From positions 1-28,131 of the IMG/VR virus record IMGVR_UViG_3300026142_000016: DNA of 28,131 nucleotides; one strand, 5' to 3'. Position 1 is the first letter of the stretch. Every line of letters begins with the position of its first letter. The notes below the pieces were generated by a model, which ran no database searches, was not told where the DNA came from, and saw nothing but the letters and a program-made list of their open reading frames with translations. The DNA comes from a virus. Below are positions 324-16,495 of this stretch, one piece after another. Made by a program: the position numbers and the translations under genes.

Positions 324-776
324 TCAAACATTGCTCACGCTCCCCTCTGGGGGTGTCAAAAATAGTTTTCTCTCTGCCTCGCGCCGTCTCTGCAGACCTG
401 GATTGACTTTCCCGTTTACTTTGTTCCATATCAAAATTGCCGCAGAAGCCGCTAGATATTGGTTCTCATTCAGGCTCCGCAGAACTGTCGAGCATGCAAA
501 GTTCCCACGCCCGATGTTGTAGACCAGAGACACAAGCGCATCGAACTGGTTCTGTGTCAGTGGAACTTGCACCAGATCATTGATTGCGGCCTCTGCCGTC
601 TTCAGGTCGTCAGCTAAGAACTGCTCGGCCTGAGTGATGTTGCAGGTATCGCCCATGTGCACGCCTGAGGTGTGACCGACTCCAATCGTCGGAATGCCGT
701 TTTGGTCCTTGTACGCAGAGGGGGAGAAGCCTTCAAACTCTTCAATGAGCTTGCGGCCAATCGGGGAGGTCGTCAC
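324..776 (-). CDS. Endolysin, GH24 lysozyme (T4/P22 type)
   Basis: This 150-residue protein should hydrolyse the MurNAc-GlcNAc bonds of peptidoglycan to release phage. It shows the GH24 signature EGFSPSAYKDQNGIPTIGVGH near the N-terminus. The catalytic triad is readable as E15, D24 and T30, with the same 9- and 6-residue spacing as Glu11/Asp20/Thr26 of T4 lysozyme. The length fits the family (about 145-165). There is no N-terminal signal or anchor, so it should need a holin to reach the cell wall. The start is GTG, overlapping the stop of the upstream gene in a GTGA junction, which suggests translational coupling to the depolymerase gene. The XhlA-like gene follows 33 bp later. Confidence 0.93.
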   Translation of the reverse strand: MTTSPIGRKLIEEFEGFSPSAYKDQNGIPTIGVGHTSGVHMGDTCNITQAEQFLADDLKTAEAAINDLVQVPLTQNQFDALVSLVYNIGRGNFACSTVLRSLNENQYLAASAAILIWNKVNGKVNPGLQRRREAERKLFLTPPEGSVSNV

Positions 777-3700
777 TGGATTGTGAACCCTCCTGTAATC
801 GTCATGCCGCCCGTCATGCTAGGTAGGCTCGCAGGGGTCGTGATGGTGTACGCCGCAGAGCCAACCGAAGAATCCAGGAAGCCAGATTCCGATGCGATTG
901 CCTTTAGCGTGAGCGAGGATGCGACAGATACAGCCGTGGAATAAGTCGAGCCGTGAGTGCAAGTACCTGCGCCGTTTGCAGTAGGGGTTGACCCGTCTGT
1001 GGTGTAGCAGAGCGTTGCCCCTGCGGTGGTGGAGGATAGGACAACGCTCTGAGTGCCGGTATACGTACCCGCCACAGGCAAGAAGGTGGGCGTTGCCGCA
1101 GTCGGGGTGCCTCCGGGCGAGATCACCACATTGCCCGTACCGGTTGCGGCGAAGGTCAGCGTTCCAGCGTTATCCGTAGTCGCAGAGGCCGGAGCGCCTG
1201 TGGCCGAGATGCTGTAGGTCGTGTTCGGGGTGAGGTCTGCAACGTAGTGGGTGGTCGCCCCGGAAGCCGGGTAAGTCACACCGGTAAACGTTGCCAGCGA
1301 GCGCATGAAGCAGCCCATCACGGTTTCGCCTGCAGTGAAAGCACAGTCGTATCCTTGGCCTGCCGTCGATTGCACCAGGGTCGGAGTGCCGGGAGTAAAG
1401 CCACTCGCTCCCCACTCCAGATCGTTCAGGAATTGTGCCGAGGTTGTGTTCGATGGTGGCGAGACTTTGAGAGAGGTATAAGGCTCCCAATCGTTCGGTT
1501 GGAAGTTGTCCAGATCGCCAGAGAAAGTTCCGCTCGATGCCCCGCTGATGACGGTGACGTTCCCGCCAGAGTTCATTGGGTTTGTCGCCGCGACAACGGC
1601 TCCGTTCCAATAGCAGCGGATGTTGGCCGAGCCGAGAGCTACGCCGGTTACTAGCCCCGTGCCGTTGACGGTCGCAACGCTCGGGGTGTCTGAGGTCCAC
1701 GCGGCACTCGCGCTCACATCTGCCGTCGATCCATCGGCGTAATGTAGCGTGCAAGTCTGCTGCATTGATGTTCCATTTTGCAGAAGCGCAAACGTGCCAG
1801 TCTGGAAGATGTATTGAGGGAGTTTGACGTTGGTTAGTGTTCCGCTCGCAGGCAGGAGAGTGGTGTAAGCCGCTTTCTGCGCTCCAGAGCGAGTCAGCCA
1901 CACAGCCTGGTTGCCGGTGATCGTCGGGGCTCCAGGGGTGTTGATCTGCACTGACTTTGGGTTGGAGGTCGTAGTCGTCGCGCGGTCGTAGGTGAGGATG
2001 TGATTCGAGCCACGCAGATAGAGGAAGTCCCGCGAGGAACCGAGGATGTCCAAATACCCGACGTACTCGTTGAATCCGCCCTTGGTGTTGATCTGTGCTG
2101 CTGCGTAGGTGGGCAACTCGGAATGAAGCAGCGGAGAGAAGTCCTGCTGTAGCCCGTGCCACCAGTCGCCACCTGAAGCGTAAGACCAGTAGTAAACGCA
2201 GGCAGGAGTGCCGCAAGAGCCTCCCGTGTTCGTGATGGAGGGCATGTTGGCTTGCGTGGCCGAACTCATCAGCGCGTTGTAGTCGTCGAACTCTGTACGG
2301 CCTTTGGTGATGTACTCATTGCCTGAGTAGACCTGGAATCTTCCACAGGTTGGGTGCTCGTGGTCGATTAGGGCGATGGCGCACCCAAAGTCTACGTAGG
2401 AGTTTGCATTCCCGCCTGTCCAGCCATTCCTCAGAATGAGGTGCTGGTTGTAGCTGCCGTTATAAAGATCCGTTGGAAGGGAAGGTCTCGGGTCTGCAGG
2501 TGGAGAGGTAACGGGATTGCCTGAAGGCAGGGCGAGGAAGAGATTGAACGCGACGCCTCCGGCAACGTCGTTCGAGAGTTCCGCCACAAGTCCGCAGTTG
2601 TCGGAGCAGCCCATCGCCGTTCCGTCAGGTCCGCCGAAAGCCGTATTGAGAATCGGCCACTCCAGTAGTGCGTTGCGGTCGGTGCGGCCCGTGTAGGTGT
2701 CAAACGTCAGGGTTGCCGCAGAGGTGCCAAACCAGCCAGGGAAGCGGTAGTACTGATTCGTGTCGCCAGAGTTGATGAATGCAAAGGCTGGAGAAGTCCC
2801 TGCGAGATTGCCGTTCTTCGGCGCCATGCCAGAGAGGAATTCAAGGTCAGCAACTCCATGCAAGTCCCACCAACTCGACGTTGCAAGGGACATCTGCGGC
2901 CCATAAGTCAGCGGATCGGTATACCCCGCAGTCCAGACCATATTCAGCGCGTCTCGGAGAGAATGAAGTTCCGCACCGTAGCCTGAACCTTCACTCGACT
3001 CTCCACCTCGGCCATCGCCAAAGCACGGAACCTGCCCTGGCCCTATCTCCGCGTCCCCCTGCCAGTTCGCGCACATCGGCTGCGTTGGGAGGTTGGCATA
3101 CTTCGCATTGAGGGCTTGCCACGAGACGTTCGGGTCTTCGAGGTGGACGTAATCGCCATAGAGATAGACCGAAGTGAAGTAGTTGAAGAAAGCGTGGCGA
3201 GAGCCGGCAGTCCAGTCTGGGCAGACGGTTGAACGCGAGGCCGAGCAGGTATTCGAAGGTGGAGGGTCGTCGGTGTTGTTATCGTCGAACGTTAGGGACA
3301 GTCCAGCCAATAGCGTGTTGCGCGCAAGAGCGTAGTTATTGCCCATCGTTCTGACGCGGCTCACAGCTCCTCCGAGAGCTGCGAGAGAGTTGTAGGTTGA
3401 CGTATCGTTTGTATTGCCGTTCGGCGGCAGCCAAGCCACTGCGCCAAACGTTCCGGTCACCGTATACCGGAGGGCGTTGTAGACATAGTTTCTGGCTACG
3501 GTGAGGTCTGCCGGGGATGTAATGGCTCCAGATCCGATCAGCCAATCTGTATCGACGGCATAGTAAACGTCATCCCCGCGCCATTCATCCTCACCCGGAG
3601 CCTGTGCCCCTGAGTTGAACTGGTTCATAAACCACACCCAGCCGTCATGGCCGTAGCAGTTCCAGTTGTAGGTTGGATCGGAAGGGTCTACCAGGGCCAT

Positions 3701-4273
3701 CAGGGCGTAGTAGAAGACGTGGCGCTGCATGAACCCATCTCCACTGCCGCTGGGGGTGTGGGTGCCTCCGCACGCCCCGCCAGTGCCCCAGCCAAAGAGA
3801 GCGTTATCGGTGTTGAACCACGAGATAGCCTGATTCTTGAGAGCTGTAGCTTGCGGGCTGCCCGCTGCAAACTTGGCCTGCAGCGCTGTCAGATCGGAGG
3901 CGCGGATGTAGAGTCTTGGGTGAGTTGTGGCAGGGGTCGGTGAGCCGGTGATCGTGATGGTCGATGTGCCCGCGACGGCTCCGTTCGCGTTCGACGTTGC
4001 CGTGAGGTGGTATGTGCCTGCGGTAGTCGTATAGAGAGCGGCGGTGCACGGCTCGTTGACCACGCAGGGGTTCGTGCCGACGATGGCGCCGCCATCAGGG
4101 GCAGTCCAGGTGACCGTCTTATCATTGACGCCATTCACGATCGCAGTGACGGTCTGATAGGACCCGCGAGGCGCTGTCACCGTGGATGGATACACGTAGA
4201 TCGACTGCCCATAGAGCCAGCCATTGCAGGCGTAGAGGGCGAAGAGCGCGGCGAGTTTGAGGAGGGCTTTCAC
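773..4273 (-). CDS. Secreted heparinase II/III-like polysaccharide depolymerase with Ig and chitobiase-C-like domains
   Basis: A 1166-residue protein. Residues 1-22 form a Sec signal peptide (short basic start, leucine/alanine core, predicted cut G22|Q23). An Ig-like segment lies at about 23-112. From residue 118, HPRLYIRASDLTAL starts a region typical of heparinase II/III and alginate-lyase-like proteins. An all-beta region with HEHPTCGRFQVYSGNEYI near 640 and NHILTYDRA near 760 fits the beta-sandwich half of that fold. A Big2-like Ig domain (WTSDTPSVATVN) lies near 860 and a chitobiase/hexosaminidase C-terminal-like domain (CYTTDGSTPT) near 1090. It probably degrades or binds host surface polysaccharide as a tail-associated or released depolymerase. 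The start is GTG, in a GTGA overlap with the 43-residue gene upstream. I cannot confirm catalytic residues. A signal peptide on a phage depolymerase is unusual. Confidence 0.7.
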   Translation of the reverse strand: MKALLKLAALFALYACNGWLYGQSIYVYPSTVTAPRGSYQTVTAIVNGVNDKTVTWTAPDGGAIVGTNPCVVNEPCTAALYTTTAGTYHLTATSNANGAVAGTSTITITGSPTPATTHPRLYIRASDLTALQAKFAAGSPQATALKNQAISWFNTDNALFGWGTGGACGGTHTPSGSGDGFMQRHVFYYALMALVDPSDPTYNWNCYGHDGWVWFMNQFNSGAQAPGEDEWRGDDVYYAVDTDWLIGSGAITSPADLTVARNYVYNALRYTVTGTFGAVAWLPPNGNTNDTSTYNSLAALGGAVSRVRTMGNNYALARNTLLAGLSLTFDDNNTDDPPPSNTCSASRSTVCPDWTAGSRHAFFNYFTSVYLYGDYVHLEDPNVSWQALNAKYANLPTQPMCANWQGDAEIGPGQVPCFGDGRGGESSEGSGYGAELHSLRDALNMVWTAGYTDPLTYGPQMSLATSSWWDLHGVADLEFLSGMAPKNGNLAGTSPAFAFINSGDTNQYYRFPGWFGTSAATLTFDTYTGRTDRNALLEWPILNTAFGGPDGTAMGCSDNCGLVAELSNDVAGGVAFNLFLALPSGNPVTSPPADPRPSLPTDLYNGSYNQHLILRNGWTGGNANSYVDFGCAIALIDHEHPTCGRFQVYSGNEYITKGRTEFDDYNALMSSATQANMPSITNTGGSCGTPACVYYWSYASGGDWWHGLQQDFSPLLHSELPTYAAAQINTKGGFNEYVGYLDILGSSRDFLYLRGSNHILTYDRATTTTSNPKSVQINTPGAPTITGNQAVWLTRSGAQKAAYTTLLPASGTLTNVKLPQYIFQTGTFALLQNGTSMQQTCTLHYADGSTADVSASAAWTSDTPSVATVNGTGLVTGVALGSANIRCYWNGAVVAATNPMNSGGNVTVISGASSGTFSGDLDNFQPNDWEPYTSLKVSPPSNTTSAQFLNDLEWGASGFTPGTPTLVQSTAGQGYDCAFTAGETVMGCFMRSLATFTGVTYPASGATTHYVADLTPNTTYSISATGAPASATTDNAGTLTFAATGTGNVVISPGGTPTAATPTFLPVAGTYTGTQSVVLSSTTAGATLCYTTDGSTPTANGAGTCTHGSTYSTAVSVASSLTLKAIASESGFLDSSVGSAAYTITTPASLPSMTGGMTITGGFTIQ

Positions 4274-4401
4274 AGTGCTGCCGCCTTGTACTTGAACTTC
4301 GGGTGAGACCGGATGTAGGCGTGGGCCTCACGCTGAGTCATGTAAGGCGAGAACATCAGGCCGTTGTTGATGAGCAGGATTTGGTAGTCGGTGAGTTTCA
4401 T
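4270..4401 (-). CDS. Small phage protein, 43 residues, unknown function
   Basis: A short ORF (MKLTDYQILLINNGLMFSPY...) between two secreted-protein genes. It is supported by coupling at both ends: its ATG overlaps the upstream stop as ATGA (4398-4401) and its TGA overlaps the depolymerase GTG start (4270-4273). The product is basic at the C-terminus (RSHPKFKYKAAAL), has no signal peptide and no convincing membrane helix. It is the only gene of the fibre cluster without a signal peptide. I recognise no family; the double overlap is the main evidence that it is real. Confidence 0.68.
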   Translation of the reverse strand: MKLTDYQILLINNGLMFSPYMTQREAHAYIRSHPKFKYKAAAL

Positions 4402-4730
4402 TTCGTCACCACCGTGCAGACCACGCCGGTAATCGTCTTGGTGCCGTCAGGATTCGCAATGACCGTAGAATCGGGTGCGAGGGCGCAGGTAAACTTCCCT
4501 GTAAGACCAGAGAGGGAGACTGACCCTGTGGCAGCCGCAGTCGTGCCGGTCACTGGAGCCTGATAGGCCGGAAAGGTAAACGAGCACGTTCCGCCGTTCC
4601 TCGGAATCTTGCAGGCCGCTGACTGACTTTGGATCGCAGCCGTACCTGTTACCGGGGCAGGAGGCACGGAGGCAGTCTGGGCAAACCATGGAGGGCAGAA
4701 CAGGAGCAATAGAAGGAGTAGCCTTTTCAT
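4398..4730 (-). CDS. Small secreted fibre-cluster protein, 110 residues
   Basis: It begins MKRLLLLLLLFCPPWF with a predicted signal-peptidase cut at A17|Q18. The mature part is Thr/Ala/Pro-rich with four cysteines and short beta-like repeats, such as PVTGTAAIQ and PVTGTTAAATG, around residues 26-70. The start ATG lies 6 bp after the stop of the 1047-residue fibre gene, with an AGAG-type ribosome-binding stretch over that stop. The stop overlaps the next gene (ATGA). The composition suggests an exported or virion-surface beta protein, perhaps a fibre cap or chaperone. No family is recognised. Confidence 0.68.
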   Translation of the reverse strand: MKRLLLLLLLFCPPWFAQTASVPPAPVTGTAAIQSQSAACKIPRNGGTCSFTFPAYQAPVTGTTAAATGSVSLSGLTGKFTCALAPDSTVIANPDGTKTITGVVCTVVTK

Positions 4731-4736
4731 TGGTCT

Positions 4737-7700
4737 CTATAGCCTGGCGATGCAGATGTAATTCACCTGGTCAGTTCCGGTGCCGTGGATTGTGAGGACT
4801 CCGGCAGTGGCAGACACCTGAACGGCGGCTACTGCGGTCACGTCAGACGCGGTGCATACTGGGGAGTGGGCATAGGTGGTAATGAAGGTGTAAGTGGCCA
4901 CGCCGCCAGAGAGAGTCAGGGTGCCCGCAAGATCGGAATTGGCGGTGGTCGTGGTGATGTGGTTAGGGAAAAGGTTGAAGGAGTCCAACTCTAATGCACT
5001 GAGAACGGCGGTATTATCGTTGGCGGTCCCGTTACCGAAATGGATAGTACCTGCCGAGTCCCGCCACATGCAGGTGTCCGCAGACGAAGGTGTCGGCGAA
5101 GGGTTGGCGATGTTGGTGACATTGGCCCAGCAGTATCCTCGGTTCGCGGCGGCGATTTCTCCTATTCCATCGTTGATCCAGAGGAAATTGGTGCCGCTGC
5201 CCAGGTCGCCGCCGTTGTTGAATATGAAATTTCCACCGGAGTTCGCAGTCGATGGAACAACGAAGTTCTGGGTTCCGGGCGTCAGTCCCCAGCCATACCG
5301 ATGCGCCGCTCCTCCGTCAAACATCGTTAGGTCAAAGTTGCCGTAGTTCGTCCCGAAGTTGATAGTGTGGTTCAGGCCTCCGCTGCCGCCGATGGTCACG
5401 TCTCCGTTTGCGACGAGGGAGCCGACTTGTAGACCCCGGTCCGCCGTCACGACAAAGGCGCTGCGGGCATTACCCTGACTGGTCACACACAGGTCGCTCG
5501 ATACCCCGGTGAACGGATTCAGGTTGCACGGGGTGAGGAAAGTTGGGGTAAGTCCTCCACCGGCAGGAAAATCAAACTCCACGCCCGCATGGTTACTAGC
5601 TCCATCTCCCGTCCCGGATACCAAGCCGGTGTGGGCGCTAAGAATCCCGGTGCTCCAAAACGAATTGCCGAAGATGTCGTGATCGAAGTGGAATCCGTCG
5701 GTCGCAATCGAGAAGATGCCCCAGCTCGGGTCGCGCCAGATGTTGTAGGAAGTCTGCCCCGGCTGGTGCGCGCTGAAGTAGAAGCCATTGGTCAGGGGCG
5801 TATAACTCGCCTGCAACGTGCTGTCGAATACACCCACCTGCTGCAGGAACCATGGCTCAGAGAGCGGCCCACCAAACGGCGTGTACGAAGAAGTCGGCTC
5901 GGCATTCTGGCCTATGATCGCAGTCGCCAGGCCGTTCGCCCCGTGCCCTGCAATAGCCGAACGGAATCCCAGCAGTTGCGCATTGGAGACAGAGGGCTGG
6001 TCCAGCAGCGCCGTCAAATCCAGCCCAATGATGTTCTGCGATTCATAGTGCGGAGACTGTAGGGCATCGCCAACCGAGAAGTACGAGTTAGGCGAAAGCG
6101 TGGGCAGCGATTCGCCTGGAGTCCACGCCGAGCCTAATGGGTTGGTTGTATCAACCTTCAAAATGCGAGCAGTGGCATAGAGGTGAATGCCCGAGCTGGC
6201 CCCACCATCAAATGTCTCCCAGGCATATCCAGGGCTCGGCCACTCCAATGCTTTGTCCGCCCCATAGTTTTCGAATGTAGCCAGCACGTGCGAGCCATCA
6301 ATGGAGATTGCCGGCAGTGCAATAGGGGCAAGTTGCGCATCCATCGACAGCGCCATGCAGTCGCCCTTCGCAATCAGGATCGACGTGTTCGGCATAGACA
6401 GGGGAATGGTGATGGTCTGGGTGGGAGAAGTGCCGCTCACCGTCGAGATAATGTTCTGCTCGGTGAAATTCGACCCGATGACGCAGGCATGGTCTCCAGC
6501 CGCAAACGTACCCGCACCAGCTCCAAGGGTAAACGTCTGCGACACGGGAGCATCCCACGAGGTATTCGGCGTCAGGTTCGCGCTGATAGCCGTGCCCCAA
6601 GCCGTAGCCGCCGGTGGCGCAAAGTCGGTAGAGATCGATGATACCCAACTCACACCGGCCCCGCCGGGGGTCATTCCAGTTGCATGGCCGGACCCTCGCA
6701 CCACCGAGAGATCGACCATCCATCCACCGCTAACCGGGGCGCAGGACTGATTCTCCAGAGCGCTGCAGCCTCCGTCGCTGGTGAACGTCGGCGCGGTGTT
6801 GGTGCCGCCCGTAATCGTCCCAGTCCAGGTGTTGATGACCTCCCCTATACGCCAGAAATTCTTGCAGCCTTCGTCGCTTGGATAAGCCACGCCCGTCTGG
6901 CAGTTGTGGTCGGACTGCTGCCCTTGGAAGTCTCCAATCCCAAACCCGGAGGTATTGCTTGACCAAAGTTGCTTGATACCGGAGGTGACGAAGGCTCCAT
7001 TATTCGAATCGGCAAAGAGCTGCGAGCTGCGGCTCTCAAACCCTCCATATCCAGAGTTCCCGCCGTAGACATTATGGGTAAGGACGAACGCCGCCAGATT
7101 AGAAGTTGCGCCGGGTAGCCCGTGCATGGACCCGTCATCAGCACTATCTACGGCGAAGCACCCCCATTTAGTGAATGTTGGTCCCGTCAGGATGCAGTTC
7201 GGAGCCGCCACTGTCATTTGGAATGGGTTCTGCACTCCGCTGATACTGCTGGCCTCAAAGAAGTGCGAACTTATCGTGCTCGCCACAGAGGAAGTAGCCA
7301 GAGGGACAAAGTTTAGGGTCTGACCCGAGAGAGCCCCGCTCCCCAAGCAATTGAAACTTGCGCCATTAGCCGAATACTTCAGGCAATGCGACACAGAATC
7401 GGCATAGAGAATGTCGTGCCCTGCTGCCGCTGTGGCTGCGGTACCTTCTAAGGCATTGAGCGTCCCACCCTGCCCAGTACCGGTGTTGACCGAGAGCGGA
7501 TGGGTGATAGTCGTAGTCGTGCCGTCATCGCAAACAGGAAGAGAGGAGGTTGAGGTCGTTCCCGATGCGGCTTTGGGTGCGCAGCCTGCAGTTTGCCCGG
7601 AAAGTGTTCCCGATCCCGCAGGTACGCAGGAATTCGACTGCGGCGAATAGACGTATCCCGGCGTCGTGCAGCTTGGAGCACTCTGTAAGAGATTGCCAAT

Positions 7701-7880
7701 GTCGGAAGAGGTGCCCGGACGCGAAGTTGTGGAGCTGGTGCCATAAACAACCGCATTTGTCGGCAAAGTGGCCCCTGATCCCGCGGTTGTGCCTACTTGA
7801 ACGCCTTTCCCAAGCTGAACTTGGGCGAGGGCAAGCGCAGAACCTCCCAGCAACGCGATAATGGCGAGCAGTCTTTTCAT
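4737..7880 (-). CDS. Large tail-fibre/receptor-binding protein with signal peptide
   Basis: A 1047-residue protein. I chose the ATG at 7880 because AAGAGGAA sits at ideal distance before it, just after the upstream stop (7891-7893). A longer in-frame reading from 7916 would overlap the upstream gene. Residues 1-19 are a signal peptide (MKRLLAIIALLGGSALALA|QVQ). The rest is low in charge, rich in Gly/Ser/Thr and Asn, and looks like a trimeric beta-structured fibre, with LSGQT repeats near the N-terminal third. The C-terminal ~65 residues (DLAGTLTLSGG ... HSPVCTASD ... GTDQVNYICIARL) resemble a terminal domain seen on other phage fibre-like proteins. It probably recognises host surface glycans. 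No intramolecular chaperone motif was recognised. Confidence 0.75.
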   Translation of the reverse strand: MKRLLAIIALLGGSALALAQVQLGKGVQVGTTAGSGATLPTNAVVYGTSSTTSRPGTSSDIGNLLQSAPSCTTPGYVYSPQSNSCVPAGSGTLSGQTAGCAPKAASGTTSTSSLPVCDDGTTTTITHPLSVNTGTGQGGTLNALEGTAATAAAGHDILYADSVSHCLKYSANGASFNCLGSGALSGQTLNFVPLATSSVASTISSHFFEASSISGVQNPFQMTVAAPNCILTGPTFTKWGCFAVDSADDGSMHGLPGATSNLAAFVLTHNVYGGNSGYGGFESRSSQLFADSNNGAFVTSGIKQLWSSNTSGFGIGDFQGQQSDHNCQTGVAYPSDEGCKNFWRIGEVINTWTGTITGGTNTAPTFTSDGGCSALENQSCAPVSGGWMVDLSVVRGSGHATGMTPGGAGVSWVSSISTDFAPPAATAWGTAISANLTPNTSWDAPVSQTFTLGAGAGTFAAGDHACVIGSNFTEQNIISTVSGTSPTQTITIPLSMPNTSILIAKGDCMALSMDAQLAPIALPAISIDGSHVLATFENYGADKALEWPSPGYAWETFDGGASSGIHLYATARILKVDTTNPLGSAWTPGESLPTLSPNSYFSVGDALQSPHYESQNIIGLDLTALLDQPSVSNAQLLGFRSAIAGHGANGLATAIIGQNAEPTSSYTPFGGPLSEPWFLQQVGVFDSTLQASYTPLTNGFYFSAHQPGQTSYNIWRDPSWGIFSIATDGFHFDHDIFGNSFWSTGILSAHTGLVSGTGDGASNHAGVEFDFPAGGGLTPTFLTPCNLNPFTGVSSDLCVTSQGNARSAFVVTADRGLQVGSLVANGDVTIGGSGGLNHTINFGTNYGNFDLTMFDGGAAHRYGWGLTPGTQNFVVPSTANSGGNFIFNNGGDLGSGTNFLWINDGIGEIAAANRGYCWANVTNIANPSPTPSSADTCMWRDSAGTIHFGNGTANDNTAVLSALELDSFNLFPNHITTTTANSDLAGTLTLSGGVATYTFITTYAHSPVCTASDVTAVAAVQVSATAGVLTIHGTGTDQVNYICIARL

Positions 7881-7890
7881 TGATTTCCTC

Positions 7891-9087
7891 TTAGTGGCCG
7901 AAGCAAACCCAGCCAACCGGCATGGAATTGGTGAAGTGAACGGAAGTCTGGGAAGTGTCGAGCGAGACTGTGATGTGCCCTATATCGAAGGCGGGGATCA
8001 GAGTAGCGACCATGTTCCAACCGCTTGTGGGGTTCTCCGATTGCACGTCCGCTGTGCAGCTAAACACTGCGTTCGGAAAGGTCAAAGGGAGAGCAGTAGA
8101 AGGCGAGCTGCAATGACTCGCCCCACATGCACTGACGGTAATGACGCCCCACTCGACAATGACTCCCCCTGGAAGAGAGGCCCAGCCATTCGTCGAGAGT
8201 CCTGAGCCTGCAGTCGGTAGAGCTATGCCGGTGTCCGTGGTGTTTCCAGAGGCGTCGAATACCGCAATATCTCCCGAGGTCGTCGTGCCAGTAGAGTGCT
8301 GGACCTTTAGCCCTGTGCCCTGGTTGTCTGTGATGGCCGTTCCGGAGGCTACTTGCACCGAGGTAGGGTTTATCGCTCCAGGAAGGGCTACATAAGCGGT
8401 CGTGGCTACTTTGGCGGAGTTGTCACTTGCAGGCTGAGTCGTCGCCGTGATCCCGTCAGGAATCGAGCTTGAGCCTGCGATATTGCTTCCCGCTGCGGGG
8501 TAGATAGCGAGCTGATTGATGGTCCCTGCAGCAATCGCCCCAGCCCCTAGGGAGGCCAAAGCCGTTGCGGGAGTCGTAGTATCGAACGTCCATGATGTCG
8601 GTGTTCCTAAGGCCCCAATCGTGACGTAATGCGCACCCAAAGTGCCGATGTTCAGCGTGTGGTTGGTGGTGTTGATGGTTATCGAGGAGTCGCAGGTAAG
8701 TCCACTTGCGGAAGGGTTTGCAATCTGCACCGCAGAGGCCGGGGAGCATGGGAATAAGTTCCCTGCGTTGACCTGATCCACCGACCAGATGGTCGATCCT
8801 GACTGGTCTTTCAGAACAAACTTGTAGGAATTGTTGCCAACCCAGATATTCGCCCCGCCTGCAGGGTCAAGGATGATAGGGTTGGTGTTCATACTGGTGC
8901 CGCTGGCATCCGTATAGGTCGCTAACGGGGTAGTTGTCCCAGCGACGAACGTCTGCAATGTGCAATGAGCGCATGGGGCGCCTGCACCATTCACAAAAGT
9001 CACATGCGGGTTCTGGACTGGGGAAACAGGCACCTGCGCCCCCAACGCGCAACACATCGCAGCCGCAATGAGCAGCAAACGTTTCAT
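7891..9087 (-). CDS. Tail-fibre protein with virion-binding-type N-terminus and signal peptide
   Basis: A 398-residue protein. Residues 1-17 are a signal peptide (MKRLLLIAAAMCCALGA|Q). They are followed by a region common at the N-terminus of podovirus fibres and spikes (VTFVNGAGAPC, TLQTFVAGTTTPLATYTDASG, then NIWVGNNSYKFVLKDQSG), which in other phages attaches the fibre to the virion. The middle is Ala/Ser/Thr-rich. The C-terminus (VIVEWGVITV ... LPLTFPNAVFSC ... PVGWVCFGH) resembles the gp53-like fibre-tip domain. The start is ATG with AAAGG upstream. It is first in the fibre cluster and next to the parS-like intergenic region, so its promoter may lie there. The signal peptide in front of a virion-attachment domain is the odd feature. 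Confidence 0.8.
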   Translation of the reverse strand: MKRLLLIAAAMCCALGAQVPVSPVQNPHVTFVNGAGAPCAHCTLQTFVAGTTTPLATYTDASGTSMNTNPIILDPAGGANIWVGNNSYKFVLKDQSGSTIWSVDQVNAGNLFPCSPASAVQIANPSASGLTCDSSITINTTNHTLNIGTLGAHYVTIGALGTPTSWTFDTTTPATALASLGAGAIAAGTINQLAIYPAAGSNIAGSSSIPDGITATTQPASDNSAKVATTAYVALPGAINPTSVQVASGTAITDNQGTGLKVQHSTGTTTSGDIAVFDASGNTTDTGIALPTAGSGLSTNGWASLPGGVIVEWGVITVSACGASHCSSPSTALPLTFPNAVFSCTADVQSENPTSGWNMVATLIPAFDIGHITVSLDTSQTSVHFTNSMPVGWVCFGH

Positions 9088-9334
9088 TTAGTGACCTTTC
9101 TGGGTAAAATGCGCTGGTTACTGCTGATTCCGCTGGTGTTTCTAGGGCAATGGCTCAGACGGAAGATTCGCGGCTGGCCTTACAGGTAACCTTTCGCCTT
9201 TTGTTCCACGTGGAACATTCGCGTGTAGCGGTGTACACTGCTTGCCCGTACCGTTGCTGCTGGATTGGGAAATCTAGCCGCCCCAAGGGTGCCAAGCTCA
9301 CTGGTGCAACGGGACGGACCTGCTTGGAGGCCAA
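9088..9334. other. Intergenic control region carrying a parS-like palindrome
   Basis: With the adjoining small plus-strand gene this is the only break of more than 300 bp in the structural block (9088-9495). It holds the 16-bp palindrome at 9202-9217, a GTGTACAC palindrome at 9231-9238, and a loose inverted repeat CCAAGC/GCTTGG (9292-9297, 9322-9327). A weak plus-strand promoter can be drawn (TGGAAC at 9211-9216, 17-bp spacer, TACACT at 9234-9239) that would overlap the parS-like site. I see no clear promoter for the minus-strand fibre genes. A 26-codon plus-strand reading frame (9109-9189) lacks a ribosome-binding site and is not called. Confidence 0.5.
9202..9217. promoter_or_regulatory. 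parS-like ParB-binding palindrome
   Basis: The sequence TGTTCCACGTGGAACA is a perfect 16-bp palindrome. It matches the chromosomal parS consensus TGTTNCACGTGAAACA at all but one position, and that difference (GGAACA for GAAACA) makes it symmetric; such GTTCCACGTGGAAC forms are used as parS in some bacteria. ParB binds such sites and spreads or clamps along DNA for segregation. No parA or parB gene is in the window, so the site could use host ParB or a ParB encoded elsewhere on the phage. It lies between the fibre and ejection-protein genes. Confidence 0.7.
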
Positions 9335-9499
9335 ATGCTTGCGATATTCGCGGTGCTAGTGCTGTGCGGCTTTGTCCTATTTCTGGCAGACTTCATCCAG
9401 GGATTCATCGTGGACGCTAGGACTTCGGCTGCGGTGGGGCTGACTAGTCTGGGCGTTTGCGCGTTACTCTTGGTTGGCTTCTTCGCGTTTTGTCTTTAG
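9335..9499 (+). CDS. Small two-helix membrane protein, 54 residues
   Basis: This plus-strand ORF has a strong ribosome-binding site (GGAGG, 5 nt before ATG). It encodes a very hydrophobic 54-residue product with two predicted membrane helices (about residues 2-18 and 34-53) joined by a short loop with D28/R30. It ends by a 3-nt convergent overlap with the stop of the minus-strand 606-residue gene. Among the phage structural genes it is the only call on the opposite strand. Size and topology would suit a holin, antiholin, superinfection-exclusion or other moron membrane protein. There is no family match I can name. Confidence 0.6.
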   Translation: MLAIFAVLVLCGFVLFLADFIQGFIVDARTSAAVGLTSLGVCALLLVGFFAFCL

Positions 9500-11316
9500 T
9501 TACTGAGAATTCTTCGCGCCTGCAAAGCAAGGCTTTTCATAACGGCAGAGCCTGGCTTCATGCTGCTAGCCCTCAACAAGAGCTGCTGACCTTCTGGTTT
9601 CGCCTTGAGTGCTGATAAATCCTGTGAACTTAGCCCCTCGGTCGCTAAATTGGTCGCACCCTTATCGGTCCAGACCTGTGTCGCTGGCTGGCGTGCCTGA
9701 ATCCTAGCCTTGAGGACATCCGCTGCAGTGGGGTCAGGGGTATATTCTGGACCGCTGATCCCCGTCGAATTGCCAGTCACAGGAGTGCGAGCCATAGAAG
9801 GCGGGGGAACGCCTGTAGATGTCGGCTGGGGAAGATTCAAAGGCTGAGGCCGGATACTTCTGAGTGCTGTATTGACTTGCCGGTTACCAATGATTTCCGG
9901 GCCGCCCTGTGCGGGTTGCAGTATCAGACGGTCTACTAGACCGGCCTTGCTTCCGATAGAACCAACCGTCGTTCCGCCCATGGCCTGCTTGCCTGCTGCA
10001 GCGGTATCCGTATTAGCAGACATCTGAGCCTCATCCGCGATAGTGCGGAGCTTTCCGGCCTGCTGGCGCACAGCAGCAATATCCGAAGGCTGTAGCCCTG
10101 TTGCCTGCGCGAGTTTGTTGTGCAGAATGTTTGTAAGTGCTTGCTTTTCTGCAATCAAATCAGCATCGCTGACGTTAGCTGCACTGGTCTGGGACGCCAG
10201 CCCCTTGCGATAGTTGGGGTTCAATTCCTGATTGATCGTATTGATTCGGTCATTGATCGACCCAAGTGTGGCGTTTGGGCCTTCGCCTACCGTAGCACCT
10301 CTATAGTTCGCCGGGACAGAGGTGATCTGCTTGGCGTTTGGTCCAAGCAAGGCATCGTCAAAGTGAGCCTGTACCGCATCAGCCGCCTGCTTCGCGGCAT
10401 TGGCGAAATCAACTTTAGAGTTGATCGGAATGTTATTTTTCTGCGCATAATCGACGATTGTTCCCGCTTCATCCGTCGCCGCCCGAATGAAACTAGGTGC
10501 TGCCTGAGGGGAAACTACCAGAGCCTTCGCTAGATTGCGGGCCGCCATGGTCTGCTGTGTTGCCGACTGCGTTGAAGGATAGAAGCGCGATTTTGCAGCG
10601 GCAGCCGCATCGGATACTGTGCCAGGAATAGACCGCATCGCATTTATGCCTGCCTGCACTGGCGCGGGATTAGGAATTACAGGCCGCCCCGGAACGGTCG
10701 CATCTGCCACTCCCAAGACCGCTGGCGCAGCCTGTGCGGAAGCGCCGATCAGTGTGCCGAGCGAACCGGGATTAGTGAGCGTGTCGCCTACTTGAGAGAG
10801 GTAGGACTCTCCTGGTTTAGGGGTGGGCTGTTGGTCTGCCAGTTTATCCATCGCAGGCCCGACTATAGGAATGGCCGTCACTGCGTGCTGGACGACGCCA
10901 GCGGTGTTGCCCTGCTTGCCTGCCTGATAAGCTTGCTTGACCTCGCTCCCGGACCTCATAAGCCCTTGCGTGAGGCCGTCGATTGCGGTCTGCCCCGTAA
11001 TTCCTTCGAGGAGCTGCTGGATGGGATGGGCGCGGAATTCATCTAGCTTTTGCTTGGCGGCTTCAGCAGTAATGCCTAATTGAGAGCCTAGCGAGTGCCA
11101 GAGGCCTTCAGGCGGAGCCTCGCTTTGTGCTGTCACAGGCTTGAAGCCTGCTTTCAGTGCGTCCTGCTGGCGGTCCATAGGGATATACCCCGCCTTGCCA
11201 TCCGGCGAGGTCATCTCTACGGCCTGCTTGAAACCTTTGGCTATGGCCGCCTGAACCTGTTCTTGCGGAACTTCACCCGAGGTGCCGTCAGGGGCGAGCA
11301 TGGGAACTGTCGGCAT
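9496..11316 (-). CDS. Internal virion/DNA-ejection protein (P22 gp16 position)
   Basis: A 606-residue protein in the place of P22 gp16, the last of three consecutive genes that in P22-like phages encode the ejection proteins forming the DNA channel. The N-terminus has two copies of a short module (residues ~8-30 and ~37-59) of form xPDGxxGxxPxxxxxxAxxxGFK. The rest is Ala/Gln-rich and helical. A mildly hydrophobic Ala/Gly/Pro stretch (GTLIGASAQAAPAVLGVADA) near residue 190 could touch the membrane. The start ATG overlaps the upstream stop (TAATG) with GGAAAGG before it. Sequence alone does not prove ejection function; position and composition do most of the work. Confidence 0.65.
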   Translation of the reverse strand: MPTVPMLAPDGTSGEVPQEQVQAAIAKGFKQAVEMTSPDGKAGYIPMDRQQDALKAGFKPVTAQSEAPPEGLWHSLGSQLGITAEAAKQKLDEFRAHPIQQLLEGITGQTAIDGLTQGLMRSGSEVKQAYQAGKQGNTAGVVQHAVTAIPIVGPAMDKLADQQPTPKPGESYLSQVGDTLTNPGSLGTLIGASAQAAPAVLGVADATVPGRPVIPNPAPVQAGINAMRSIPGTVSDAAAAAKSRFYPSTQSATQQTMAARNLAKALVVSPQAAPSFIRAATDEAGTIVDYAQKNNIPINSKVDFANAAKQAADAVQAHFDDALLGPNAKQITSVPANYRGATVGEGPNATLGSINDRINTINQELNPNYRKGLASQTSAANVSDADLIAEKQALTNILHNKLAQATGLQPSDIAAVRQQAGKLRTIADEAQMSANTDTAAAGKQAMGGTTVGSIGSKAGLVDRLILQPAQGGPEIIGNRQVNTALRSIRPQPLNLPQPTSTGVPPPSMARTPVTGNSTGISGPEYTPDPTAADVLKARIQARQPATQVWTDKGATNLATEGLSSQDLSALKAKPEGQQLLLRASSMKPGSAVMKSLALQARRILSN

Positions 11317-12761
11317 TAGTGAGCCTTTCCCCCAAACTGCGCGAATGGATCAGCGGTATTCCCGCCGTTTTGATCCCCGAAGTTCGGCTTACCCTGCTGG
11401 CCTTGGTTGTACTGTGCCTTGAGGTTGGCAGCCTTGGAATTCAATAACAGCCGGTAGGTGGCGATGGCACCCTTGAGCTGGATCGGGCTTTGTACGCGGC
11501 TGAAAGTGCTATCTACCTTGGCAATTTCCGGATCTGTAGCACCCGAAGCCTTCAGCGTCGCCGCTACTTCGCCAGCCATCGCGTTCTTAGCCGCCTCAAA
11601 GTTAGTCGGAGCGGGGTTTCCTGTCTGCTGTGCCCACGCCTGCGCAGCTTTGTTGAATACCTGAATATTCGAGTTATTGAGATCGGTCGCCAGTTTATCG
11701 AGCAAATTCAAGTGTTGTGTTGCGGTATTGAACGCAGTGAGCTGCTGGCCGCCCTTGCCGCTTGTGAAGTACTTCTCATTGGCTTGAACAGTCTTCACGT
11801 CGCCGCTGTTCGGAGCTTCTTTGCCAATTGCATCCTTGCGGGTCACAAAGACCGTGTTTCCTGGATTGTTTGGGTCGGCTACTGCCTGTGGCATCTGCAG
11901 ATAAGTGGAGGCCCTGACTTCTGCAGGCTGAATCTTCGTCTCTTTCGTGTACTCCTTGAACGCCGCCAAACGGTTCTGTGCGGTGTCAGGCAGCCCATTA
12001 GCTTTCAGATAGTCCGACTCGAACTTGTCTACATCGGTACTCCCGCCGCGAGCCACGTTCATGTTCTTTTCGGCTGCGGTCGCTGTTTCCGAAGCCGTCT
12101 GCGCCTGCTTTTGAGCCGCATCCATCTGCTGCGACTCAGACATCAGACCCTTTTGCATTAGGGAAAGCTTCTGACGAATCGCTGCGGGATCGCCGGATTG
12201 AGCAATCTGCTGGGCCATCTGAACATGCGGAGGGTCCAGCAAGCCTTTCTGCGCCAAATCCTGAGCCGTCTGGACCAATCCTTGCGCCAGTTGATCGTCC
12301 GGCATATTGGAAACATTGCCCAACGCCCCGGCGATCATGTCGTTTTTGCCCTTCATCGTTTCGAGATTCTTCGCACCGGTGGTCGCGTCATCCGCAGCGA
12401 TCTTGGAATAGGTCTGCTGCTGCTCCAAGACTTTGCTCTTTAGCCCCATGACGGCTTGGGCCGAGGCACCATTCTTGATAACCAGCGGAATGAGCGAATT
12501 TACGTCTTTACCATCCCAATCGTGCATGGCCGCTGTCATGGCCTGCTGGTCCTTCAGCGCCTGTTGCTGCTGTTGGATACCCAACTGCCCAGACTGAATG
12601 CTCTGCTGGGCCTGCTGCTGCTGCAGGGGTGCCATAGCGGCGCGCTGCTGATATTCCTGCTGCGCATTGCGCAAAGCGGCGAGCTGCCCGAACTTCTGCA
12701 GGATGTCAGGCTGCTGCGGGGTCTTTAGATCGAGCGCCGGTAATGCCATCAGACTGCCCAT
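11316..12761 (-). CDS. Gln-rich internal virion protein (P22 gp20 position)
   Basis: A 481-residue protein, strongly helical. Its first ~75 residues are glutamine-rich (QQQQAQQSIQ and QQQQQALKDQQ), followed by coiled-coil-like segments up to ~240. Such Gln/Ala-rich proteins between the gp7- and gp16-like genes are typical ejection proteins of P22-like podoviruses. The first codon used is ATG at 12761. A second ATG four codons in (MALPALDL) is an alternative start. The next gene downstream begins within its stop codon, so the two are probably translated together. Confidence 0.65.
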   Translation of the reverse strand: MGSLMALPALDLKTPQQPDILQKFGQLAALRNAQQEYQQRAAMAPLQQQQAQQSIQSGQLGIQQQQQALKDQQAMTAAMHDWDGKDVNSLIPLVIKNGASAQAVMGLKSKVLEQQQTYSKIAADDATTGAKNLETMKGKNDMIAGALGNVSNMPDDQLAQGLVQTAQDLAQKGLLDPPHVQMAQQIAQSGDPAAIRQKLSLMQKGLMSESQQMDAAQKQAQTASETATAAEKNMNVARGGSTDVDKFESDYLKANGLPDTAQNRLAAFKEYTKETKIQPAEVRASTYLQMPQAVADPNNPGNTVFVTRKDAIGKEAPNSGDVKTVQANEKYFTSGKGGQQLTAFNTATQHLNLLDKLATDLNNSNIQVFNKAAQAWAQQTGNPAPTNFEAAKNAMAGEVAATLKASGATDPEIAKVDSTFSRVQSPIQLKGAIATYRLLLNSKAANLKAQYNQGQQGKPNFGDQNGGNTADPFAQFGGKAH

Positions 12762-13652
12762 TTAGCCTCCAAGTTCGTTCGGGATGCCGAAGAGTCCGCC
12801 GCCACTGCCATACCCGCTGCTCATGCCGCGCAGCAGAGCTAGATTCGTCAGATTCCCTCCGATTCCGCTGATGCCCTGATTCCATGCATTCGCTCCGCCG
12901 ACATAGCCCGAAGCCGTCGCAGCAGCAGCATTATTCAACTGCTGGCCCTGCTGGGCACCAGATGTCAGGAGATTGTTGGTCACGTTATTCGACGCAGCCT
13001 GCCCCTCTTGACCTAATTGAGCTGCCGTGGTCTGTCCGACTCCTGAAAGTGCAGCAAGCCGGTTGTACTGGTTCGCCTGATTGGTGTTGTAGGTGTTGTA
13101 ATTCGTGTCAAACGTGTTCAGCGCCCTGTTGTAGACGTTCGAGTATTCGTTGGAGGCATAGTCCTCCCCAAACGCGTCCAGCGCCTTGGCGGTGCCTCCG
13201 GTGAGCACTGAGCCCCTGGCGGCTGCTGAATGCTGTAAGGCATCCGTACCCAACTTCAGTCTCGCCTGGAAGCCGGGGTCGTTTTGCTCGGTCAGTGCAG
13301 TGGGAGCGGTGAACGTTCCGGAATAAGGAGTGGTCAGTGACCCTTGGCCTACTCCTGATCCGTTTGCTGTCCCGCCGATCCCTAGACCGTACTGCAGAGC
13401 GTTGAGACCACTCTGTCCTGCCTGCAACCATGGAGCCTGTTGCTGTTGCGAGGTCTCGTACTGCTGCTTTTGGAAGTCGAGCGCGTCTTGTGAGTCCTGA
13501 TGCTGAAGTTGGGCCGCGCTTTGGGCTGCCTGAGCCTGAGTAGACGCAGCATTTCCGGCAGCATTGGCACTGATGGCCGATCCTGCGATGCTCCCGGCTG
13601 CCCCGATTCCCCCGATAATCCCCAGCGTCGTTGCTGAAATCGCTCCGCTCAT
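12762..13652 (-). CDS. DNA-transfer/ejection virion protein (P22 gp7 position)
   Basis: A 296-residue protein starting with a Gly/Ala-rich hydrophobic stretch (residues ~10-30, LGIIGGIGAAGSIAGSAISA). This is followed by a Gln-rich coiled coil (to ~75) and a conserved-looking block around 125-175 (DPGFQARLKLGTDALQHSAA, then ARGSVLTGGTAKAL and FGEDYASNEYSNVYNRAL). That block is familiar from podovirus proteins annotated as DNA-transfer or minor virion proteins. The C-terminus is Gly/Asn-rich. The ATG overlaps the upstream cupin gene as ATGA. It probably forms part of the channel ejected ahead of the genome. Confidence 0.72.
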   Translation of the reverse strand: MSGAISATTLGIIGGIGAAGSIAGSAISANAAGNAASTQAQAAQSAAQLQHQDSQDALDFQKQQYETSQQQQAPWLQAGQSGLNALQYGLGIGGTANGSGVGQGSLTTPYSGTFTAPTALTEQNDPGFQARLKLGTDALQHSAAARGSVLTGGTAKALDAFGEDYASNEYSNVYNRALNTFDTNYNTYNTNQANQYNRLAALSGVGQTTAAQLGQEGQAASNNVTNNLLTSGAQQGQQLNNAAAATASGYVGGANAWNQGISGIGGNLTNLALLRGMSSGYGSGGGLFGIPNELGG

Positions 13653-14008
13653 CGTCTAGTCACCAAGGCTTCATATTCCCCTGTAAATTCCTCTTCTGCC
13701 TGCTCCAAAGTCTCTGCATCTGTGCGAAAGGTCATGGTGATATGCGTCTCCTCCATGCCCACGAAAATCTGCTTTCTGCCTGCTTTTGCAGGGATGACGT
13801 TATAGCCCTCAAGCTCTATCCAGCCGTCGCCAGTGAAAACACGGCATTTCCCCGAGACAATCAACAGCGTAGGAACCTTGATCTGGGCACCCATCAGGAC
13901 TATCTCTGGGCCAATCGTCACTGTTCTGACATACATTCCCGCATGCAAAAAGTGCTCGGTATGCACTTCCTCTTGCGGGAGGGTAAGCATGTGCTCCTGC
14001 ACCTGCAT
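13649..14008 (-). CDS. Cupin-like phage protein
   Basis: A 119-residue protein of alternating beta strands with a cupin-like pattern: HAGMYVRTVTIGPEIVLMGAQIK, then LLIVSGKCRVFTGDGWIELEGYNVIPAKAGRKQIFVG. Small proteins of this look occur beside tail and ejection genes in other podoviruses, commonly near an acetyltransferase as here. Role unknown; metal ligands are not obvious, so it may be structural. It sits 8 bp after the GNAT gene and overlaps the next gene by 4 bp (ATGA). Confidence 0.6.
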   Translation of the reverse strand: MQVQEHMLTLPQEEVHTEHFLHAGMYVRTVTIGPEIVLMGAQIKVPTLLIVSGKCRVFTGDGWIELEGYNVIPAKAGRKQIFVGMEETHITMTFRTDAETLEQAEEEFTGEYEALVTRR

Positions 14009-14016
14009 AAGCTGGC

Positions 14017-14460
14017 TTAGGACAGCGGGCGATAGAACACTGAGTTGGTCTGCTGATATTTCTTGGCTGATAACACCCTCTCTAATTGCCCGCCAGCGGG
14101 AGATGAGTACAAAATGCCCTTACAGCCGACTTCGAGCGCATATTTCTCCAGTGCCAATAGCAGTTCCCGGCCAATGCCTGACCGTCTCGCATCCTTACTG
14201 ACAAACAGCGTTTCCACTGTCGCCACACGTACCCCGTAATGGGGCAGAATGGGCGTCAGGACGTTCGCAAACCCCACTAAGCCACCGTGATATGCCGCGA
14301 AGCTCTGGAGCGTCCCTGCGGCCTCTAATGCGGCATAAATCTGAGGTTGCGGGTTGACTCTCCCAATGCCGGGAATAGAGCACTCATCGGCGTATTCCAG
14401 AATCAGCGGCTGGGCCTCTTCGCTGAGAAGCCAGTCGGCATAACTGACGCGCCGAATCAT
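14017..14460 (-). CDS. GNAT-family N-acetyltransferase
   Basis: A 147-residue protein with a clear GNAT motif A at residues 82-105: VETLFVSKDARRSGIGRELL, where R92-x-x-G95-x-G97 forms the acetyl-CoA pyrophosphate loop. The preceding strand (LVGFANVLTP, 61-70) and the C-terminal strand (NSVFYRPL) complete the fold. Substrate unknown. Embedded by an ATGA overlap with the upstream gene and followed by the cupin-like gene, it may modify a virion or host protein late in infection. A near full-length family member with no sign of decay. Confidence 0.85.
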   Translation of the reverse strand: MIRRVSYADWLLSEEAQPLILEYADECSIPGIGRVNPQPQIYAALEAAGTLQSFAAYHGGLVGFANVLTPILPHYGVRVATVETLFVSKDARRSGIGRELLLALEKYALEVGCKGILYSSPAGGQLERVLSAKKYQQTNSVFYRPLS

Positions 14461-15026
14461 GTTGCTTGCACCTGCCCAATCAAGAGACCGTTTTGGAATG
14501 TCATCGAACCCTGACTTCCAAGCCCTGTGAGTGCCGCCGTGGTAATCGTCACTGTGATTCCGGGAGAAAATGCTGTTGCTATGGCAGAGGTCGCAAACGC
14601 CTGTGCATTCGCTTGTGCTGCATTCGCCTTGGTGGTTGCGTCTACTGCCGCCGCTGCCTGCGCTGTCGCTGCTGACCCTGATGGGTCAAACGCCGAACTT
14701 GGCTGTATCGCTGCCGTTCCTAGAGTGTTGCTCGATGCCCCTGCCGGGAGGATGACTGCGCCCTGCTCTGAAGTCGTCGCTGCGGGCAGACCAGCGGGCT
14801 TCATTACGCCCAAATCCGTCAAATGCTGGACGATGGTTGCTAGGGTTTTGCGCCCTACAATCGTTGCTAAAGCGCCAATCGGGCCTTGATAGTTCCCTGC
14901 AGGGTCAAAGGCTCCATTGACCGTTGAACCCACTGCCTGCATCCACCGAATAAGCGCATAGGTAGCTTTTCCATCACTGTCTACCAGGGGAACATTTGGC
15001 GTGTTATTCGATACGACTGAACTCAT
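14457..15026 (-). CDS. Virion-associated protein following the gp10-like gene
   Basis: A 189-residue protein in the slot where P22 encodes its tail needle. The first third (VPLVDSDGKATYALIRWMQAVGSTVNGAFDP) looks like the N-terminus of a structural protein family of podoviruses. Residues ~115-150 form an Ala-rich helical stretch (AQAAAAVDATTKANAAQANA), and the C-terminus is short beta strands. It might be a tail needle or fibre-adaptor equivalent, but the sequence is not similar enough to a known needle for me to claim that. Both ends overlap neighbours by ATGA. Confidence 0.55.
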   Translation of the reverse strand: MSSVVSNNTPNVPLVDSDGKATYALIRWMQAVGSTVNGAFDPAGNYQGPIGALATIVGRKTLATIVQHLTDLGVMKPAGLPAATTSEQGAVILPAGASSNTLGTAAIQPSSAFDPSGSAATAQAAAAVDATTKANAAQANAQAFATSAIATAFSPGITVTITTAALTGLGSQGSMTFQNGLLIGQVQAT

Positions 15027-16495
15027 GATGCCCTGACAAAACCCTCAGTAATGCTGTAGGGAACTGGATCGGAAAAACTCAGCTCAAAGACTCGCCCATA
15101 TCTGGTTTGGCCTAGCCGCTGCCATCTGACAAACGTTTGATACTGCCCGGCAAACCCAATCCCTCTGACGTGCTCGTTCGACCATGTATTTCCCGAATCG
15201 TCACTCCAGCGCAGCATGATCTGCGGAGGTCTATCGTTGCCGTCTCCGTCCTTAAGTGGCGGTTGGGGTCCGAGTCCTGCAGCGACCTGAAGTTTCAACT
15301 CGGGGAAATAGATTCGCTCTAACTCATTCATCAGTGTTGGAGCCCTTCGCAGTCTCCTGATCGTCGCCCCGTTGTCCGTTACAAAGGCATACACTCCCCC
15401 GCCCTTGTCGTAAGCCAACTTCATTTCGTACAGGTTGCCGGTCTGGTAATCCCCTACTAAATGCTTGCCGAACGCATAGACGTGATTCCACGACAGATGC
15501 GGGCCGAATTTACCATTTACTGGATTCCACTCTGCCCGCTTATGCCAAAGTCCTTCAGCCACGTCATAAACGAACGATGCATCGCTGTTCGGGATATAGA
15601 GAAGCCAGAATAGGTGTCCGCCATCCTGATAGGAATAAGACACCAAGTTGGCAAAGTCATCCTGCGACCATAAAGAAAGCCACGCTTCTACCGCATGCGT
15701 AGAAATTCTCTGCGGAGTATAGCCGTTGGCTCTCCAGCACATCCGCGCTCCGCGCTCATCCTCATTCACCCAAAGAACCGTGTTGTCGAGCTGGCAAGCA
15801 CTGAATGTCGCCGCGCATCCTGTTTCGATAAACCCGCTTGGCGCTACGTCGAAAATCTCATCTGTCCCGGTGTCTTGATAGGGCTGGGCGTGTCTCGCTC
15901 CGAAAACCCACAATTCCCTATGACTGACCTCAATTGAGACGATATTCTCCGCAAACACCGAGACTTCATTGACCTGAATCCCCGGCCACACGGTTCCATC
16001 GAGAATGTCAGAGATTTGAAACTTATTCGAATCCTTGAAGCAAACAATAAAGTACCCATCCGAGTATTTGGTCTTTATTGGAACACCTGCGAGCGAAGCA
16101 GTTACGTCTACATACGTGTTTGTCGCGAGGGTGTAGCAGTAAGCCCTGCCACCAGCCACAATCAGCAGTTGAATGTTGCTTGCCGCTATAGAAACCGGAG
16201 CGCCAAACGTGTCCAGAACTCCGTCCATACGCGCAACAAAGCTCTTATCGGCCATGACTTCATAAAGAGTGTCCGCAGATGCCTCAAAAACTCTTCCATT
16301 GGCCTCGATTCCGCCTCTTGTCGGGCCATCGGTGAAGGTGCAGAACAATTCAAGCCCCGGAGTGCCGATATAAGAGAGCTTGGCTTGTGCTCCTGGGGTC
16401 TCAGCGGTCTCGGCATACTGGTTGATGCATTCTTCGTCCGCAATCGTGTTGAATTTGGCGGTGTAAGACGCGCCAATTAGGCCGAATTTACTCAC
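15023..16495 (-). CDS. P22 gp10-like tail hub / packaged DNA stabilisation protein
   Basis: A 490-residue beta-rich protein with the features of the P22 gp10 family: an N-terminal block with ECINQYAETAE and GTPGLELF, a central propeller-like region (VIVSIEVSHRELWVFGARH-type strands), and a highly typical C-terminus with MLRWSDDSGNTW, then GRVFELSFSDPVPY. In P22 this protein forms the hexameric hub below the portal and gp4 and holds packaged DNA in. The length matches (P22 gp10 is about 470). The start is GTG, in a GTGA overlap with the gp4-like gene. Confidence 0.9.
   Translation of the reverse strand: MSKFGLIGASYTAKFNTIADEECINQYAETAETPGAQAKLSYIGTPGLELFCTFTDGPTRGGIEANGRVFEASADTLYEVMADKSFVARMDGVLDTFGAPVSIAASNIQLLIVAGGRAYCYTLATNTYVDVTASLAGVPIKTKYSDGYFIVCFKDSNKFQISDILDGTVWPGIQVNEVSVFAENIVSIEVSHRELWVFGARHAQPYQDTGTDEIFDVAPSGFIETGCAATFSACQLDNTVLWVNEDERGARMCWRANGYTPQRISTHAVEAWLSLWSQDDFANLVSYSYQDGGHLFWLLYIPNSDASFVYDVAEGLWHKRAEWNPVNGKFGPHLSWNHVYAFGKHLVGDYQTGNLYEMKLAYDKGGGVYAFVTDNGATIRRLRRAPTLMNELERIYFPELKLQVAAGLGPQPPLKDGDGNDRPPQIMLRWSDDSGNTWSNEHVRGIGFAGQYQTFVRWQRLGQTRYGRVFELSFSDPVPYSITEGFVRAS

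Follow-up and report, generated by a model that had tools for sequence, protein, structure and literature searches.

Predicted signal peptides on the tailspike and fibre proteins of a P22-like podovirus suggest an exported receptor-binding module

Results

We examined a 28-kb window (the whole stretch of 28,131 nucleotides that was analysed) of the IMG/VR virus record IMGVR_UViG_3300026142_000016, and in particular four of its late genes, p398, p1047, p110 and p1166, whose products begin with predicted signal peptides. The window belongs to a P22-like podovirus of a soil bacterium, temperate in the best explanation. It encodes a major head protein (phrog_283) and, as judged by identity over the genes searched, forms part of the 40.6-kb twin record IMGVR_UViG_3300005616_000115, on which an integrase-like gene is found. 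The late genes, all on the minus strand, follow the order ejection genes, p398 (7891..9087), p1047 (4737..7880), p110 (4398..4730), p1166 (773..4273) and lysozyme. The explanation that fits best, and which we consider probable as a whole, is that p398, p1047, p110 and p1166 form the receptor-binding module of this phage.

The predicted signal peptides read MKRLLLIAAAMCCALGA in p398 (9037..9087; cut A17/Q18, score 7.1), MKRLLAIIALLGGSALALA in p1047 (7824..7880; cut A19/Q20, score 7.6), MKRLLLLLLLFCPPWFA in p110 (4680..4730; cut A17/Q18, score 5.5) and MKALLKLAALFALYACNGWLYG in p1166 (4208..4273; GTG start, cut G22/Q23, score 4.6), each followed by glutamine. The scores come from a rule-based scorer, under which 28 of 30 reference signals of E. 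coli reach 6.0 or more. The traits of a Sec signal for signal peptidase I (a basic n-region, a hydrophobic core and small residues before the cut) are clear in p398 and p1047 and weaker in p110 and p1166. By the same scorer, none of the remaining 20 called genes of the window exceeds 1.7 and none of the called genes in the rest of the twin record reaches 5.5. The reading frames and cleavage sites are as claimed in a first-pass annotation of this DNA, and so is the MKRLL start shared by p398, p1047 and p110; p1166 begins with MKALL. That annotation had further proposed that one signal was copied between the genes, which finds no support here because nucleotide identity over codons 2-5 does not exceed that of random synonymous codons (P=0.19-0.92) and because relatives use different leader sequences.

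Taken on its own the p1166 signal is the weakest, but its chromosomal Acidobacteriota homologue is also leader-bearing, and the similarity between the two extends from the very beginning of their mature parts. Lipoprotein signals, the substrates of signal peptidase II, were rejected since no good lipobox is present in the four proteins: on inspection p398, p1047 and p110 lack the pattern [LVI][ASTVI][GAS]C, and p1166 has a poor LYAC in its place, which is absent from a 1125-aa protein with a similar leader in the relative L003. All four proteins plausibly carry Sec signal peptides, which signal peptidase I would remove.

Relatives of p398 at about 60-70% identity also carry leaders, and the homologue alignment shows the leader retained in all close relatives while its sequence diverged, with an A/Q site that is invariant across 12 homologues. 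In most homologues the start codon of the leader is preceded by a sequence resembling a Shine-Dalgarno (SD) site, the one of p110 being weak.

Directly after its leader, p398 carries a P22-type tailspike head-binding domain (about residues 28-110; 8758..9006). The family profile matches the PDB entries 7eeq (Pam1 tailspike head-binding domain, chain 7eeq_A, E=1.5e-9) and 9vyg (Pan3), and a Foldseek search with the predicted model returns 7eeq (1.8e-6), P22 9jg6 (2.6e-4), Sf6 7sg7 and also Pan3. The model is confident almost only in this domain, where the predicted local distance difference test (pLDDT) value is about 80-92. Profile and model together confirm the predicted mature N-terminus as a P22-type head-binding domain, which bears out the earlier proposal that a virion-attachment type of N-terminus follows one of the signals. 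This domain is the only clear one of its kind in the twin record. At the other end, p398 has a gp53-like C-terminal domain (Pfam PF21882, 3.6e-7; phrog_26190 and phrog_4209, tail fiber), consistent with a tailspike or adaptor; beyond it no family match to a beta-helix body was obtained, and the predicted model is unreliable in that part. The same genome carries a leaderless tail hub gene of the P22 gp10 type (head closure Hc3, 15023..16495; phrog_578, 7e-87), and p398 occupies the late-operon position of a P22-type tailspike. The protein may thus work like such a tailspike, but is not a standard member because of its signal peptide.

Leaderless homologues occur in phages, cultured ones included; examples are Xanthomonas PBR31, Rhodoferax P26218 and Podoviridae from Manatee Spring. 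In the alignment their first methionine falls on the A/Q cut of p398 or beside it. At the position of the CxxC of p398 (C39 and C42; 8962..8973) they mostly have PLxGG. Homologues that lack the segment and start downstream of it, named in the first-pass annotation as evidence against its signals, therefore do exist, but they form largely separate groups without cysteine pairs, which suggests that the leader was gained or lost and not that its start is wrong.

To compare the two kinds, we surveyed 191 distinct head-binding domains, drawn from phages, viral contigs and genomes; the leader test was passed by 31. Four others (L205, L229, L242 and L265) look leader-bearing by eye but fall below the test and were set aside, so that the leaderless set for cysteines comprises 156. 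At least two cysteines lie within the head-binding domain in 29 of the 31 leader-bearing spikes, compared with 1 of 156 leaderless ones. Their layout varies by subgroup (CxxC in the window's clade, GGC...NCASG in another, FFC with PC in L091), and in two copies on Acidobacteriota chromosomes, both leader-bearing, the domain contains no cysteine. The mature cysteine count is even in every complete leader-bearing spike (25/25, range 6-16), while among leaderless spikes with any cysteine it is even in 32 of 84. An ATG is found near the cleavage point in 5/31 leader-bearing and 157/160 leaderless spikes.

The same pattern extends to the other proteins of the survey contigs, where even counts are found in 67 of 73 leader-bearing proteins with any cysteine versus 48 of 108 leaderless genes. 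When these contigs are represented by one protein per homology cluster, the figures are 41/43 versus 37/77, a comparison less affected by kinship than the association with domain cysteines. In the window, the mature parts of the four leader-bearing proteins hold 8, 20, 4 and 20 cysteines (1.97% versus 0.55%). Among genes of 150 aa or longer, scores of 6 or more are concentrated in contigs with a leader-bearing tailspike (34/158, compared with 8/1041 in contigs whose homologous tailspike is leaderless; P=2e-24). Even cysteine numbers point to disulphides, and the simplest reading is that spikes and fibres leave the cytoplasm. Export of the spikes and fibres is well supported by the sequences, and the putative oxidation of the exported spikes is supported by cysteine pairing. 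Large leader-bearing proteins (914-1688 aa) also occur on three contigs with a leaderless tailspike (L085, L087 and L095).

In relatives of the window, the majority of fibre-module proteins, if not every one, bear leaders, for example those of 391, 209, 150 and 1125 aa in L003 and of 587, 646, 401 and 665 aa in L068; in L005 one of the four proteins is just under the leader cut-off. A Pfam scan of nine further module proteins from relatives gave no matches. An Acidobacteriota chromosome (L215) has cysteine-free ejection-type proteins followed by a leader-bearing spike and fibres, and a Betaproteobacteria metagenome-assembled genome (L205) has a comparable, less clear set, in which the n-region of the spike leader is unusually long and the scorer did not call it. 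The cultured Acidobacteriota podovirus Tunturi_2 (PP885685) encodes five leader-bearing tail-module proteins (ORF12, 13, 14, 16 and 17; one just under the usual cut-off), with mature cysteine counts of 20, 10, 20, 1 and 34 and a cysteine content of 2.05% versus 0.42% in its other structural proteins. Both Acidobacteriota genomes checked, which have leader-bearing spikes, encode VKOR and DsbA-like families; DsbB had no match in these two genomes.

Two further kinds of leader-bearing protein were seen. Leader-like starts (MKKLIA...LG/AT) are present on a second fibre gene of cultured proteobacterial phages, namely PBR31 (QIN95346.1; L042 5142-5951) and BcepC6B (gp19, 'tail fiber protein'; L216 9001-10074). 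In L018 (7789-8622) and L246 (1551-2276), the gene for the major head protein is immediately followed by one for a leader-bearing protein with 4 mature cysteines, perhaps an exported head-decoration protein.

The second fibre-module protein, p1047, is related over residues 463-739 to a tail fiber of the cultured Acidobacteriota phage Tunturi_3. Its post-cleavage motif QVQLGKGVQVG (7791..7823) is conserved, the second gene of relatives retaining AQVQLGKNVQIG directly after the cut, and could possibly act as a docking peptide. The small p110 is a predicted secreted protein with 4 mature cysteines. p1166 resembles an enzyme and contains Big_2 and CHB_HEX_C domains, and its residues 6-809 are 40% identical to an Acidobacteriota chromosomal secreted protein, whose gene adjoins glycosyltransferase-like genes that look, by eye, like polysaccharide biosynthesis. 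This homologue and its neighbours suggest that p1166 may be an enzyme acting on host polysaccharide, which may be released or virion-borne. Its lyase-like look stays unproven because the core has no Pfam or NCBIfam match and its single-sequence model (pLDDT 31.5) is useless. Chromosomal Acidobacteriota p1166 homologues of 959 and 1931 aa lie beside glycosyltransferase-like genes in L311 (G137 C2:1378001-1397000).

Around the module, three ejection-type proteins of 606, 481 and 296 aa (9496..13652; phrog_598 for the 296-aa protein) have neither leader nor cysteine, and the leaderless phage lysozyme, an endolysin (324..776; PF00959, 3.7e-46), overlaps the end of p1166. An exact parS-like palindrome, TGTTCCACGTGGAACA (9202-9217; 0 expected in shuffles), is found in the gap that separates the ejection genes from p398, and its core GTTYCACGTGRAAC recurs in L006/L007, L246, L265, L268 and L020. 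A tRNA-Ser (CGA) is located within the structural region (24316-24391). Inspection by eye recognised two further genes among the tail genes (13649-14460), one small and cupin-like, the other for a GNAT-like acetyltransferase; annotated acetyltransferases are also found among the structural genes of Tunturi_2 and Tunturi_3.

Discussion

Our preferred explanation, which we regard as probable, is that the spikes reach the periplasm by export, are oxidised there and join the heads when the cell lyses. p398, p1047, p110 and p1166 would be made with Sec signals and cross into the periplasm, where they would be trimmed before glutamine and fold with disulphide bonds, while assembly of the heads and their tail hub takes place in the cytoplasm. 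At lysis, mature p398 from this presumed periplasmic pool would dock onto the hub through its P22-type head-binding domain, and the other fibres would then add onto p398 or the particle. P22 tailspikes join otherwise complete particles last, and do so spontaneously in vitro; attachment at lysis therefore needs no new chemistry. A broader generalisation, to a class of tailed phages with two-compartment assembly in which a cytoplasmic head and hub and a periplasmic, disulphide-bonded receptor-binding apparatus are joined only at lysis, is possible, though we hold it slightly more doubtful than not; spikes could then mix between phages.

The first-pass annotation had offered export, for instance of depolymerases or decoys, as one account of these leaders. 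Export has gained support from leader conservation and from the number, pairing and parity of the cysteines. The narrower version, that the proteins are chiefly free secreted enzymes or receptor-masking decoys acting before or after lysis rather than virion parts, draws on the resemblance of p1166 to a secreted protein encoded on a chromosome next to what look like polysaccharide genes, and on the GDSL lipase and laminin-G-like domains in relatives' modules. We consider it unlikely, since p398 keeps the conserved head-binding domain, the genes lie between ejection proteins and lysozyme, the usual place of a tailspike, and without p398 no receptor-binding protein is recognisable in the genome. 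p1166 itself may still act as a decoy or free enzyme.

The other account of the earlier annotation, in which the hydrophobic N-termini stay uncleaved and tether the proteins to the inner membrane or aid insertion into the virion while assembly proceeds on the cytoplasmic face, could appeal to the weak scores of p110 and p1166 and to the fact that sequence is no proof of cleavage. It is disfavoured, and in our judgement very improbable: leaderless homologues begin at the cut and keep the head-binding domain without the segment, the A/Q site does not vary, and the even cysteine pairing of the mature part is hard to explain in the cytoplasm. We attach equally little weight to the idea of two products per gene, a leader form exported as enzyme or decoy and a second form, begun at an internal start and thus leaderless, that enters virions in the cytoplasm; in-frame ATG, GTG or TTG codons do lie near the cut in some leader-bearing genes, but the ATG is confined to the few spikes counted above, and in a simple test an SD-like motif preceded 0 candidate internal starts. 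That the leaders are untranslated artefacts of start-codon annotation, as the leaderless homologues might suggest, is scarcely credible, given that the reading frame is open through the leader, whose character is conserved, that most homologues have an SD-like site upstream, that an ATG is usually missing at the start of the head-binding domain, and that the cysteine pairs track the leader.

Several observations weigh against export and periplasmic oxidation as we propose them. Tunturi_3, from the same host strain as Tunturi_2, has no leaders on its fibres or in its structural region, for which reason leaders as a general trait of Acidobacteriota phages were rejected. Sampled exported proteins of one Acidobacteriota genome, chosen as a positive control, show no cysteine parity (14/29 even, 0.38% cysteine), so that host-wide disulphide formation is not supported and, together with the missing DsbB match, the cysteine richness of the phage proteins is not fully explained. 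Disulphides could in principle form after lysis instead. The scorer is rule-based and was calibrated on few sequences. Leader-bearing and leaderless spikes largely separate on a weakly resolved tree that needs at least 7 changes; a single origin of the leader-bearing spikes would still be compatible with it, and the association with domain cysteines is not phylogenetically independent because the two kinds are partly clades. An independent-pairs test on this tree had too few supported pairs.

Comparison with known systems

The tailspikes of P22 (gp9), Sf6 (gp14) and the cyanophages Pam1 and Pan3 share with p398 the head-binding fold, a gp10/Hc3 hub gene and a place near the ejection genes. p398 differs from the P22 tailspike in its leader, and further in the lack of a beta-helix family match, in its gp53-like C-terminus and in its leader-bearing neighbours. 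The P22 tailspike has no leader and is a product of the cytoplasm. Synthesis and addition of tail parts normally happen within the cell, and tailed-phage receptor-binding proteins are currently treated as cytoplasmic. The filamentous phage coat proteins pIII and pVIII are likewise virion proteins with cleavable signal peptides, pIII having disulphides, but they assemble at the membrane, whereas here a tailed-phage head is built in the cytoplasm. The T5 lipoprotein Llp, a secreted receptor-blocking protein, is also a phage-encoded exported protein acting at the surface; the present proteins differ in having no good lipobox, a late-gene position and, in p398, a head-binding domain. Sec-exported and signal-arrest-release endolysins, such as Lys44 of phage fOg44 (PMC6116005), show that tailed phages use host Sec for late proteins, but their cargo is a lysis enzyme and not a receptor-binding module with a virion-docking domain.

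If tailspikes are exported, the order of assembly, the scope for phenotypic mixing and the rules of annotation would all be different for a group of soil phages, and extracytoplasmic folding would be a route to disulphide-stabilised spikes. Under two-compartment assembly, a virion's spikes need not be those of its own genome, through mixing in a co-infected cell or after release. The Hankyphage paper (PMC6199706) took the absence of signal peptides as support for the phage origin of receptor-binding proteins. Among the open-licence papers listed in searches on signal peptides with tail or structural proteins, SignalP and BcepC6B, and the smaller number opened, we found no account of exported tailspikes, and the main text of the Tunturi_2 paper (PMC11924767) does not mention signal peptides. 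As compared by leaders and cysteines, Tunturi_2 (PP885685) resembles the present phage in its run of leader-bearing tail-module proteins and its high cysteine content. Its host, a Tunturiibacter strain, is a soil Acidobacteriota in culture, so that the proposed export of spikes is directly testable in this phage.

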